Shown here: positions 50,388-57,961 of the stretch, one piece after another
Layout: the number at the start of each line of letters is the position of its first letter
How positions within the stretch are numbered: position 1 is the stretch's first letter
Source: Methanothrix sp.
GTDB taxonomy: Archaea; Halobacteriota; Methanosarcinia; Methanotrichales; Methanotrichaceae
Length of the DNA: 64,000 nucleotides
Reading direction: 5' to 3'
Assembly (NCBI GenBank): GCA_026394565.1
Contig: JAPKYA010000045.1
Span: 46,162-110,161, forward strand
Position numbers and translations under genes: made by a program
Notes under the pieces: model-generated
The model's input: only the letters and a program-made list of their open reading frames with translations
Database searches by the model: none
What the model was told of the DNA's origin: nothing

Positions 50388-51957
50388 CTTGACTTACCCA
50401 GATTACATTTTAAGGTTAGCTCTTCATAGAAATCCTTAATTATACTATTAAAACATAAATCTTCATTCATTAATTACAGGAGGCTATGAATGAAGTTTGA
50501 GCTAAGTGAAGAGGATCTGGCCAGAATTCTCATGTATTTCTTCATAATTTACGAAAGTTATAAATCCTACTTTGTAACAAAGACACGTAGCGTTGAAACG
50601 GCAGCATCCCAGTACGCACAAGGATTGCTGCTTCAGCAAGGACGTGGCAACATGACCAAGTACGCGAATAATGTTCAAGACGCCAGTGCTCGTCGTTTTC
50701 AGTATTTTATCTCTCATTCGACATGGGAATACAGACCGGTGATTGCCCAAATTCAACGTGATGTCATGGAGCGTATCGGCGATGCAAGAGATGGAGCGAT
50801 ACATATAGATGAAACCGGCTTCCCAAAGCAAGGTGATGATTCTGTAGGAGTCAAACGCCAATATTGTGGTCGTCTCGGCAAAGTGGACAACTGCCAGGTC
50901 GCCGTATGTTTGGGTTACACAAAAGGTTCGCTGCGTACTCTTATTGATACGGAGCTATATATTCCGGAAGACTGGGCAAATGATCTGTATCGTAGAGAAA
51001 AATGTGGTATCCCCGAAGATCTGAAGTTCAAGAAAAAGGCCGAAATCGCCCTTGAGCTGATTCGCGGAGCGCGATCCAACGGAGTTCAATTTGGCTGGGT
51101 AGGCATGGATACCTTCTATGGAAGGGATTCATTTTTGCTTAACACCATTGATTCGGATGGAATCGTGTACATGGCTGATATTCCATCAGATACTCGCGTT
51201 TGGCTGAATCTTCCACGAGTTGGAATACCTGAAAGAAAAAGCAACCGTGGTCGCATGCCTACTGAATCGAGAGTTCTGGATGACGAACCATCTCCGACTG
51301 AAGTGAGGAAGATCAAAGACGAACTTGATCCCTCTCAATGGATTCATACTTTTGTCCGAGACACTGAACGAAGTGAATTGTGGTCTAAGATCGCTTGCTT
51401 GCGTATCTTTGCTGTTGAAGACAAATTGCCCAGCAAAGAACAATGGCTGATCATCAGGGTAGATGATAGTGACGGCGCTACAAAATATCAGTTATCCAAT
51501 GCACCACTTGACACAACTATTGACAGATTTGCCCAGATGTCCTGCAGCAGGTATTGGATCGAAAGGGCTTTTGAAGACGAGAAGGGACTTGCAGGCTTCG
51601 CGGACTTTCAAGGTAGAACCTGGTTAGGATGGCACCATCACATAACTATGGCGATGTTTTCTATGATGGTGATGATGTTCGTCTGCATCGAGTTTGGTCA
51701 ATTTGCCGATCTTTTGACCGTCCAGGATATAAAACGGATCTACGAAAAATCATTTACAAGGAAACAATTTAGTAGCAATGATGTGCTTCATTTCCTGAAA
51801 ACGAGACATAAAGCAAGAGAAGATGCAAAAATATCACACCATCGAGCAAAATATCGTTAGCTAAATGCTTGGTCAGAGATGGCATGATGACCTAAAGGAT
51901 AATGCTGCTCTCATAATAATATAATAATCTTCATAGTCTTAGTGTGGATAAGTCAAG
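50388..51957 (+). mobile_element. IS701-like insertion sequence
   Basis: Imperfect terminal repeats CTTGACTTACCCAGA / CTTGACTTATCCACA (13/15) enclosing a single transposase. Confidence 0.7.
50490..51860 (+). CDS. IS701-family-like DDE transposase
   Basis: HIDETGFPKQGDDSVGVKRQYCGRLGKVDNCQVAVCLGY; WIERAFEDEKGLAGFADFQGRTWLGWHHHITM. Confidence 0.88.
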   Translation: MKFELSEEDLARILMYFFIIYESYKSYFVTKTRSVETAASQYAQGLLLQQGRGNMTKYANNVQDASARRFQYFISHSTWEYRPVIAQIQRDVMERIGDARDGAIHIDETGFPKQGDDSVGVKRQYCGRLGKVDNCQVAVCLGYTKGSLRTLIDTELYIPEDWANDLYRREKCGIPEDLKFKKKAEIALELIRGARSNGVQFGWVGMDTFYGRDSFLLNTIDSDGIVYMADIPSDTRVWLNLPRVGIPERKSNRGRMPTESRVLDDEPSPTEVRKIKDELDPSQWIHTFVRDTERSELWSKIACLRIFAVEDKLPSKEQWLIIRVDDSDGATKYQLSNAPLDTTIDRFAQMSCSRYWIERAFEDEKGLAGFADFQGRTWLGWHHHITMAMFSMMVMMFVCIEFGQFADLLTVQDIKRIYEKSFTRKQFSSNDVLHFLKTRHKAREDAKISHHRAKYR

Positions 51958-53727: not shown

Positions 53728-55662
53728 CGCATGTTTGGTACTATATAAATCGACTTATCACGGCTCCACTCCAGGTAGTATGCCGTTCGTAGCCATATTG
53801 AAGACATCTATTAGCGTTCTTGACTCACTGTTGACGCCTCCTAATTTCCGGCGGACTTCAATCTCATCGCCTTTTCCGATTACAATTTCGACTTCTTTTA
53901 GCCGTTCAAGAACGGCCATTGCATCATCCACACTCATGCAAATTTCATTATTTTTTAATTTCATTTTTAAGATCGATCGAAGTTGATACGCCATTGAACA
54001 CACGAAAATATTTCCAAGAACATGCTCTGTTGTTCTAACGTATTGGGGATGGAGACTTAATGCACATTTAAGCGTCTGAATAGCTTTCTCGATCTGATCT
54101 CTTGTTCGATAAGATTCCACAACATCTTTCTCAGTGAGATCAAATTCTGTCGTTGCGAAGATCTGGTATCCATCGTAATTTTTGGCCTCAATGAATGCAT
54201 TACTTCTCTTCATGCTGAATCCAAATCCTTTATTATCTCCTTTTGTATTAATATACCTTGTAACTCCAAATTTGCTCTTAATATGGCCTATTTTCTCATC
54301 TCGTTTCTTTCTAGAGTCAATACGCCCTCTCGTGACAGCATCTTGAATCTTAATAAGTTCTTTTTCTGCCTTTTCAACTCTTGCCTCTCGCTCCTTCCTA
54401 TTCGTAGCCGCAACCGAAGAATTCCAGGTAATTATATATTTTCTTTTATCCTTGATAATAGAAGCACCAACTTCGTTTTCCCCAACATCTATCCACTTCT
54501 CCGATGGCATTCCTACCTCATCCAAGAATTTAGTGGCTTTGATTTTGGCTCGGATTGCGACAAGATACCGCTCCTCATTCTTATCCATATAATCGAGATT
54601 AGCCCATGTGGCGATTCCTCTGTCCATAACTCGTGGTGCATCTAACTTGAACTTCTGCGTCAGACAATCGTCAATCGGTTCTAAACTTTTTGCATCAGAT
54701 TGATTTCCAGACCAAACCCGGTGGGTCACCAGAATGCCCTTTTGGTCTACGATGAACGCTATCACTATTTGAGGTCGATCGGGACGATGATCCCTTGAAT
54801 ATCCAAACGTTGCCAAAATGCATTTATTGCCCTCAAAATATGTAGATGTAAGATCGATATCGAGCCGATCACAATCATAGTGATACACTTTGCGAATATT
54901 TTCATATATTGCCGCTTGCATCTTTATCGTATTTTCCGGTTGAAGATAATCCAGGGCGTTTAGGCTAACATCATATGTTAATTCAGAGCATGGGAACTTA
55001 AGGAAAATAGGCAGTGAGCTCCTTGAGTACCATTCCTGAAGCTTAAAATAGCTACATGGGTCGCAATTCCTGTTGATAGACATAGCTTCAACGATCTTCC
55101 CTATACTTGGTCCACCCCCCTTGTTGCTGAATTTATCGACGATATTGACAAAATCAATCTCTTCACAGACTTTATGAAATGCCAGCTCTCTTCCGTAATC
55201 AAACGTCTCTTCCACAGATATGTCAGTCAATGAAGATGGCAGCTTATATCCAAGAGACACTATGATCGATCTAAACTTTGTAATGAGAGCTGGATCATCT
55301 AATTTTTTTATTTTCTCCTCGAACTCTAATCTCTTGGGCTCGTCAATATTCTCCAGACTGCCAAGATAGAGCTTTGTCTTGCGAGTAACTTTCCCGTTTA
55401 TGCGTTTTCCTTCGTAGATTGCATAATATTTGTGTCCCTTTCGGGGAATTGCTTGAATGAACATGAACTATACTTTGTCTTATCAACATATAAACATTTC
55501 GCTATTACTACCATTAATTGATAGCGTTTATCGTGAAAAATTGGTCTTATCAACAAAAATTGGCTTGATTTGGAACGAATACAAGAGAAATGGTGGTGTT
55601 GAAATGCCATGTGCGCGAAGGGTATTTTCTAGAAAACAAAGTTATATACTACCAAACATGCG
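53728..55662 (-). mobile_element. IS1634-like insertion sequence with 6 bp TSD
   Basis: TIRs CGCATGTTTGGTACTATATAA / CGCATGTTTGGTAGTATATAA; TTTTAT directly repeated at 53722-53727 and 55663-55668. Confidence 0.9.
53758..55464 (-). CDS. IS1634/IS4-type DDE transposase
   Basis: 568 aa; VMDRGIATWANLDYM, YRTRDQIEKAIQTLKCALSLHPQYVRTTEHVLGNIFVCSMAYQLRSIL. Confidence 0.9.
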   Translation of the reverse strand: MFIQAIPRKGHKYYAIYEGKRINGKVTRKTKLYLGSLENIDEPKRLEFEEKIKKLDDPALITKFRSIIVSLGYKLPSSLTDISVEETFDYGRELAFHKVCEEIDFVNIVDKFSNKGGGPSIGKIVEAMSINRNCDPCSYFKLQEWYSRSSLPIFLKFPCSELTYDVSLNALDYLQPENTIKMQAAIYENIRKVYHYDCDRLDIDLTSTYFEGNKCILATFGYSRDHRPDRPQIVIAFIVDQKGILVTHRVWSGNQSDAKSLEPIDDCLTQKFKLDAPRVMDRGIATWANLDYMDKNEERYLVAIRAKIKATKFLDEVGMPSEKWIDVGENEVGASIIKDKRKYIITWNSSVAATNRKEREARVEKAEKELIKIQDAVTRGRIDSRKKRDEKIGHIKSKFGVTRYINTKGDNKGFGFSMKRSNAFIEAKNYDGYQIFATTEFDLTEKDVVESYRTRDQIEKAIQTLKCALSLHPQYVRTTEHVLGNIFVCSMAYQLRSILKMKLKNNEICMSVDDAMAVLERLKEVEIVIGKGDEIEVRRKLGGVNSESRTLIDVFNMATNGILPGVEP

Positions 55663-55934: not shown

Positions 55935-56310
55935 TTAGATCCATGCACTCACCGGTCCGAATCCATGCAGATCATACGCCTCCTTCACCAGCGCCGGCGC
56001 CACCGTGGCGTAGATCTATAGCCTCTTGTGACCCACCCGGCTATCTGGATCATGGGCACCGGCACGCCAGCCATGAGCGCATTCACCACATGGCTGTGCC
56101 TGAGGATATGGGGCGTGACCTTCCTTCTGGAGAGCTTCTGCCGGCGCGAAACCTCCTGGATCCCGGCCTCTTCTGGCAGGCGATCTATTGTCCGGAGCAC
56201 AGTCTTGGTGCTCAGGTGTCCGGAGCTCCTGCCTGGGAAGAGCCACTCCTGGCCAAGCTGGATGCTCTTCCGGATGGCCTGCTACGGTGGGCAGACTCCC
56301 GAGTCATGAC
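55935..56310 (-). pseudogene. Second tyrosine recombinase C-terminal remnant
   Basis: QEWLFPGRSSGHLSTKTVLRTIDRLPEEAGIQEVSRRQKLSRRKVTPHILRHSHVVNALMAGVPVPMIQ, frameshift, IYATVAPALVKEAYDLHGFGPVSAWI. Confidence 0.8.
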
Positions 56311-56368
56311 TCTGGACTCCTGACTCCAGCACCCTGACCCTTGCATCCAGATGCCAGACTCCAGAGTC
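56301..56368. repeat. GAGTC/GACTC palindromic repeats upstream of parA
   Basis: GAGTCATGACTC at 56301-56312, GGACTCC/TGACTCC at 56314-56327, GACTCCAGAGTC at 56357-56368. Confidence 0.75.
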
Positions 56369-56408
56369 AAGCACAATCCTTATAGACATTCATGAAGAGT
56401 TTACAGTT

Positions 56409-57149
56409 ATGGAGGTAATAGCAATAGCCAACCAAAAGGGAGGGTGCGGCAAGACAACGACCACCGTCAATCTCGCCGCATATCTCGCCCTGCGAGGTTC
56501 CCATGTTCTGCTGATAGACCTCGACCCACAGGGCTCTTCGACCACCCATCTTGGCATTGACAAAGACAACCTGCCCAAGAACATGAACGAGGTCATGATG
56601 GATAGGGCGAAGCTGGAGGACATCATCATACCCACGACCGTAAAAGGGCTTGATATCGCTCCCACAAATAACGACCTCGTTGAGGCCGATGCGGTCCTGA
56701 CCAGCAAAGTAGGCCGTGAGAAACGCCTCCGAAAGAAAGTCCAGGCGCTGAACTACGACTACGTGATCATCGACACGCCCCCGGCCCTGGGCAACATGAC
56801 CCTGAACGCACTTGTGGCAAGCGATAGGGTCATTGTCCCGGTGCAGGTGGAGTTCTTCGCAGTAGAAGGACTGAAGACACTCATCAGAATGCTGGATGAG
56901 CTTGATGAACTTGGCTATCAGCCGGAGAGAAGATACCTTCTGACCATGTGCGACAACAGACGGAAGATAACCGAAGAGGTGTCCACCAAAATAAGGAGCT
57001 TATTGGGAGATGCCGTCTTCAAAGTCGTTATTCCCGAGAACGTGCGGCTGGTCGAGGCTCCGTCCCAGGGCCTGCCAATATGTCTCTATGATCCATCCTG
57101 CTCAGGGGCACTGGGCTACAAGGATCTGGCAGATGAGGTGGCGGCATGA
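56409..57149 (+). CDS. parA: ParA/Soj-type partition ATPase
   Basis: NQKGGCGKTTTTVNLAAYLA; LLIDLDPQGSSTTHLG; VIIDTPPALGNMTLNAL. Confidence 0.92.
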   Translation: MEVIAIANQKGGCGKTTTTVNLAAYLALRGSHVLLIDLDPQGSSTTHLGIDKDNLPKNMNEVMMDRAKLEDIIIPTTVKGLDIAPTNNDLVEADAVLTSKVGREKRLRKKVQALNYDYVIIDTPPALGNMTLNALVASDRVIVPVQVEFFAVEGLKTLIRMLDELDELGYQPERRYLLTMCDNRRKITEEVSTKIRSLLGDAVFKVVIPENVRLVEAPSQGLPICLYDPSCSGALGYKDLADEVAA

Positions 57150-57961
57150 GCCCAGGAGATCGCATGACGAAAGGGCTTGACTTCATGCTGAAAGGCATAG
57201 GGCCGAAAGACAAGACACCAGAGTCTGAAGGCACGTCTCAAGAGTCCGGAGTCATGACTCCAGAGTCCGGAGCAGAGAGCCAGGATAAGAGCGTCCAGCT
57301 TCAAGACCCCAGAACCTTGAGTCAGGAGTCAAGAGTCACGACTCAGGAGTTAGAAGTTATTGCCGCTGAAGAAATAGATGTGAAACATGAAGCAAACGTC
57401 AGGCTTCAAGAAGCAAAAGTCACGGCCCCAGAGTCGGGATTAAAGAGGCAAGAAGCAGGGCACAGGCTTCAAGACCCCAGAACCTTGAGTCAGGATTCAA
57501 GAGTCACGACTCCAGAGTCAGTAATTGAGCCCTCCAAAGAAAAAGAAGTGAGACAAGAGTCAAGCATCAGCCATCCGGAGTCAGGAGTCTCGACTCATGA
57601 GTCAGGTGTCAAGACTCAAGACCCAGCAGACCAGCATCAAGAGGCCAGACCCCAGAGTCTGGAAGAGAAAGATAAGACCAAAGTCGTGACTCAGGAGTCC
57701 GGAGTCGTGACAGATGACATAGTAGGCCAGGCAGTAGCCCAAGCCCTGAAGTCGCCCAAGATCTCACTCTACTCTCCCTTGCTACTTGCCGTCCTGGAAA
57801 GCCAGCAGTTGATGCTCTTAAACCGCAAGGAACTGACGCTCCTGCAATACCGCAAATCCACCAAGGCCCGGGAGCTGGTCGAGAACGCCCTCAGGGAAGC
57901 CTACCCGGAGCTTTGCGAGAAGATACAAAAGCGCATAGATGAAGGAAATGGGAAGGCGTAA
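57146..57961 (+). CDS. Putative partition partner protein with repetitive PESGV(M/T)T region
   Basis: 271 aa, ATGA overlap with parA; central repeats rich in GAGTC/GACTC, helical C-terminus. Confidence 0.65.
   Translation: MSPGDRMTKGLDFMLKGIGPKDKTPESEGTSQESGVMTPESGAESQDKSVQLQDPRTLSQESRVTTQELEVIAAEEIDVKHEANVRLQEAKVTAPESGLKRQEAGHRLQDPRTLSQDSRVTTPESVIEPSKEKEVRQESSISHPESGVSTHESGVKTQDPADQHQEARPQSLEEKDKTKVVTQESGVVTDDIVGQAVAQALKSPKISLYSPLLLAVLESQQLMLLNRKELTLLQYRKSTKARELVENALREAYPELCEKIQKRIDEGNGKA

Follow-up and report, generated by a model that had tools for sequence, protein, structure and literature searches.

Can the centromere of a segregation cassette lie within the gene of the very protein that binds it? 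This question is raised by a locus of a Methanothrix sp. (contig JAPKYA010000045.1; the window, which is the whole stretch of DNA that was analysed, has 64,000 nucleotides, and all positions refer to it), for which an earlier note made from the sequence alone had described palindromes both upstream of a parA gene and within its partner gene, and had proposed a parS-like array in the latter.

The cassette and its two proteins

All features of the cassette lie on the forward strand. Its first gene (56409..57149) encodes a ParA-family Walker ATPase of 246 aa, which has the deviant Walker A motif KGGCGKT and a Pfam AAA_31 match at 5e-56, and which also matches solved Soj/ParA structures, with chain 7dut at 8.6e-19; this chain is deposited as SOJ protein and belongs to the same 7du/7dv series as the SegB structures. 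The gene of the partner (57146..57961, 271 aa) overlaps the first one by the ATGA at 57146-57149, and gene order and overlap agree with the published segAB arrangement, in which segB follows directly downstream of segA and overlaps with it (PMC12284271). The partner has no match among the Pfam and NCBIfam families, and a bacterial ParB with its HTH and CTPase domain was rejected as an identity, as no ParB family of these two collections matched. Its C-terminal domain (57707..57961) is predicted to bind DNA by a ribbon-helix-helix fold, based on homology to SegB via the family: profiles of the C-terminal family match the solved SegB of S. solfataricus (7duv/7dv2) at 1.1e-13 and 6.5e-14, and the domain of the window, which alone reaches a non-significant E of 1.3 against solved SegB, is linked to members of the C-terminal family at E 1.8e-10, so that its membership rests on this family chain. 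AF2 models of modest confidence (pLDDT 79 and 64) have the order helix-extended-helix-helix, and SegB ranks first in Foldseek for one of the models only, as a weak match at E 1.7. No matches were obtained when phages, plasmids and genome contigs were searched with the complete partner protein, or when viral contigs were searched with the fragment of solved SegB. As far as sequence can tell, the ParA partner is a member of the archaeal SegB family with a putative ribbon-helix-helix domain, and parA is segA. Near its N-terminus, SegB has the conserved peptide MTKGLDFMLKGIG (57164..57202), which reads GLGKGLDSLIP in relatives and, by analogy to ParB and ribbon-helix-helix partners, likely is the peptide that contacts SegA.

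The related genome G018 contains four different genes of the SegB family with different DNA words (contigs C144, C78, C74 and C10), which suggests several compatible elements, and on plasmid pMETEV01 of Methanohalobium evestigatum a SegB-domain protein (L138; NC_014254.1, 162935-163468) is encoded beside a different ATP-binding protein that is not a close SegA. In the window itself, two transposase genes are found just upstream of the cassette (50490-51860, DDE_5, and 53758-55464, DDE_Tnp_1), and the genes at 58013-61729 (encoding 106 aa, a winged-helix protein of 98 aa, 222 aa and 347 aa) are common to genome G035 and in part to G017; judged by this shared occurrence, they are a conserved backbone near segAB. 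A perfect 41-bp tandem duplication at 62381-62462 overlaps the end region of a minus-strand DUF1670 gene.

A 7-bp repeat upstream of segA and inside segB

The palindromes had been placed correctly, with five exact copies of GAGTCNNGACTC at 56301, 57249, 57333, 57501 and 57585, GACTCATGAGTC at 57592 and GACTCCAGAGTC at 56357, but the 12-bp palindrome is not the unit, and of the second form four further exact copies had been overlooked (56294, 57256, 57508, 57688). The real unit is the 7-bp step GASTCNN, and since the whole pattern fits this step, the palindromes are adjacent heptads; GAGTC is the reverse complement of GACTC, and both are covered by GASTC. Seven such cores lie upstream of segA and 24 in segB, there mostly in five contiguous runs, with at most one mismatch allowed per heptad of a run. 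The upstream heptads form an array of five contiguous ones in non-coding DNA (56294..56328; aligned in G022 and G035) and a second array of two contiguous ones, GACTCCA GAGTCAA (56357..56370), the last of which lies about 10 bp before the TATA-like element CTTATAGA (56379..56386). This element is identical in three orthologs in the alignment and lies about 25 bp before the ATG of segA, it probably acts as promoter of a segA transcript with a short leader or none, and the fact that heptads adjoin it suggests an autoregulation. In segB, there are three runs of five heptads with one degenerate heptad each (57235..57269, 57319..57353 and 57487..57521), a run of seven with two degenerate ones (57578..57626) and a run of four with one degenerate (57681..57708), which adjoins the C-terminal domain; shorter runs lie in between. 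In G022, a second upstream-type heptad array (L020:711-736) is found about 2 kb away, past a 530-aa gene.

The genome-wide palindrome count that the earlier note had proposed gave five exact copies in the 2.29-Mb genome, all at the segAB locus. With one mismatch allowed, the window contains 15 and 18 matches to the two forms versus 1.9 and 2.1 expected, numbers that were reached by none of 100 shuffles, and chance or codon usage as origin of the sites was rejected by such shuffles and by synonymous-codon nulls. A genome-wide family of heptad repeats was rejected as well, as the arrays are confined to segAB: the four-heptad pattern was not found elsewhere in the window genome, and in 50 genomes of the family four-heptad arrays occur solely at segAB loci, in five genomes, which are those with a GASTC-type segB.

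The 7-bp unit could in principle have arisen by slippage or spread without any function as a site. Borg elements resemble the cassette in that genes on extrachromosomal DNA of archaea contain repeats, and in-gene tandem repeats are common in them (PMC9879509); the in-gene spacings found here are multiples of 21 bp, suggesting past duplications. However, the units in Borg genes are divisible by three and are read at the protein level (PMC9879509), whereas the step is 7 bp here, the spacer dinucleotides are of 10 kinds while the cores persist, no arrays exist elsewhere in the genome, and upstream region and gene change their word together (see below). Such a neutral origin is thus very improbable.

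The core GASTC is also the centre of the 13-bp motif TCTAGASTCTAGA that has been found for SegB by ChIP-seq in S. solfataricus (PMC12284271). The window genome lacks the full 13-bp motif, and it is the GASTC core alone that is common to both. In G018, where the heptad spacers often are TA, 3.4 Mb contain three exact copies of the motif, all of them at segAB (two in front of segA and one within segB); a single copy is found in G001, in front of its segA, and the 50 family genomes contain only one more.

Constraint on the DNA and joint change of the word

The 24 cores inside segB compare with 8.6 expected from permutation of its own codons, or 7.2 from the codons of the genome (p<0.0005); none of 2000 synonymous permutations reached 24, and the excess is similar in five homologs, being weakest in G001b. 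When orthologs are compared at codon position 3, the core bases differ at 1 of 27 sites and the other linker bases at 50 of 149 (p 0.0009), whereby MAFFT may pair like repeats and so lower the apparent divergence of the cores; the permutation test is independent of the alignment. The C-terminal domain differs at 18 of 84 such positions, the central S position of the core is freer (5 of 23 differ), and comparisons of core and linker with G022 agree. The earlier note had regarded homologs with the same protein repeats and recoded palindromes as evidence against a function of the DNA. What the homologs have is the opposite, the protein linkers diverge and the DNA cores are kept, which by comparison of sequences supports the parS-like array inside the partner gene and an in-gene array that is constrained as DNA.

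It has also to be considered that the seven-residue motif (Q/P)ES(G/R)VxT is selected as a disordered or beta-helical peptide and that the DNA heptads merely follow. QES(G/R)V indeed recurs in linkers of the GASTC class, and large SegB proteins with 14-aa repeats have been published as predicted beta-helices (PMC12284271), but most heptads are lost on synonymous permutation, GASTC is retained in all three reading frames, heptad copies lie in non-coding DNA upstream, and the loci of the CTTAA class encode quite different linker peptides (TLSDKTLS) that nevertheless match their own upstream word. A selection at the peptide level is therefore improbable.

The joint change becomes apparent when the commonest word upstream of segA is determined and then sought in segB. 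Loci with GASTC upstream have GASTC in the gene, and those with CTTAA upstream have CTTAA in the gene, with almost no crossing, in a comparison of loci that are related and hence not independent; for the majority of them, the permutation p for the word of the locus does not exceed 0.022, and it is weaker in G001b. In the ACTTC loci, the agreement between upstream region and gene is weak, and there is no word evidence at G039 and G044. In the SegA tree, the word classes require at least two well-supported changes. The segAB loci of Methanobacteriales, which served as control, mostly have 7-bp arrays upstream and none in the gene, and because upstream arrays can exist without in-gene ones, the in-gene array is an addition and not a by-product of the linker.

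The cassette is also found on viral contigs, with GASTC on L150 and CTTAA on L151 and L167, and L209, which is binned as Micrarchaeota and probably is misbinned or mobile, contains a cassette that closely resembles the one of L167. At L371 (G240:C37:35000-42000), the segA upstream region and the segB linker both have ACTTATC/TATCACT heptads, of which TATCACT fits the omega word WATCACW of pSM19035; this is suggestive of a possible fourth word class in G240 (p 0.005 to 0.19 by word). Several inverted GAGTCNN/GACTCNN heptad arrays occur on each of the viral contigs L029, L044, L062, L064, L081 and L103, in whose analysed DNA no SegA or SegB was found. Most GASTC arrays on viral contigs proved to be plain repeats, or inverted arrays that are unrelated and have no SegAB beside them, and were rejected; TCTAGAS arrays in viral contigs are unrelated.

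Proposed function and known systems

We consider it quite probable that the locus is a SegAB cassette with a centromere array that lies partly in the segB linker, which would place adaptor and docking array in one gene. For its function we infer SegB binding, control of the ATPase, autoregulation and partition. SegA would be the ParA-like ATPase of an archaeal SegAB-type segregation cassette, and SegB dimers would bind the GASTCNN steps via the C-terminal ribbon-helix-helix, side by side on contiguous heptads, while the N-terminal peptide of SegB would contact SegA. The first part of the centromere would be the short array in front of segA, with a probable further role in regulating the operon; the second, larger part would be the about 24 cores within the translated segB linker, and SegB would be loaded on heptads in two blocks that flank segA. 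The linker may be usable as DNA site while being translated, because it tolerates almost any sequence.

Binding sites inside the gene of the own binding protein are known from the parS inside spo0J of Bacillus subtilis and from the lambda ori iterons inside gene O, but these are one site and four iterons, respectively, for unrelated proteins, and no co-diverging array is involved. In the TP228 ParFG centromere, a ribbon-helix-helix adaptor binds to repeated short ACTC boxes that are also the operator, which differ from the heptad array by another spacing and by their position outside the gene. The SegAB systems of Saccharolobus solfataricus and Sulfolobus acidocaldarius likewise have the segA-segB overlap, the homologous SegB C-terminus and GASTC-centred sites upstream of segA, and they have intragenic SegB sites too, in S. 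acidocaldarius also within segAB (PMC12284271). There, however, 32-46 sites of 13 bp with the spacer TA are scattered over the chromosome (PMC12284271), whereas the Methanothrix locus has dozens of 7-bp steps with the spacer NN, which are restricted to the cassette; most of them adjoin one another, and most sit in the segB linker. The delta-omega parS of pSM19035 resembles the cassette by contiguous 7-bp repeats in both orientations and by a partner with the ribbon-helix-helix fold that is predicted for SegB; each repeat is bound by one dimer, and ParA is fully activated only by four or more repeats in a row (PMC9499535), a rule that the Methanothrix runs of 4-7 heptads fit. It differs in its word, WATCACW instead of GASTCNN, and in arrays that overlap promoters only (PMC9499535), and no sequence homology was seen between this system and the cassette.

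These comparisons bear on whether in-gene sites would bind SegB for partition or rather for regulation, as transcriptional roadblock or by SegB titration, or for compaction and bridging. The upstream heptads abut the promoter region, and the Sulfolobus SegB sites lie for the most part inside genes and have been connected with looping and with the organisation of the chromosome (PMC12284271), but the runs of at least four contiguous heptads resemble the pSM19035 minimum for ParA activation, and on viral contigs, which also carry cassettes, partition is the likely benefit. A role in regulation or compaction instead of partition is possible but rather unlikely; it shares its first step with the partition cassette, and the two are not exclusive.

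Both single SegB sites within genes and SegB proteins with repeats have already been published (PMC12284271), and what appears to be new is that the repeats of the linker are recognised as an array of co-evolving sites. The large SegB of Metallosphaera likewise has tandem repeats between N-terminus and ribbon-helix-helix domain, and these are interpreted as a protein beta-helix, in the available part of the source without a link to SegB sites (PMC12284271); the repeat of 14 aa corresponds to 42 bp, which is the length of six heptads. It may be, with the balance about even, that the main centromere of one archaeal lineage has shifted into the coding part of the gene whose protein binds it, that the dual-coding linker is rewritten along with SegB specificity, that segAB is a portable plasmid or virus cassette, and that large SegB repeats elsewhere, such as those of Metallosphaera, are to be read likewise. 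As a clear case, one stretch of DNA would be a centromere-like array and a protein linker at the same time, and its word would evolve in step with the specificity of the protein. The published repeats of large SegB proteins obtain an alternative, testable reading. For methanogens, whose motifs had been described as more degenerate, the heptads provide candidate SegB sites, and portable segregation cassettes for methanogen genetics are suggested.
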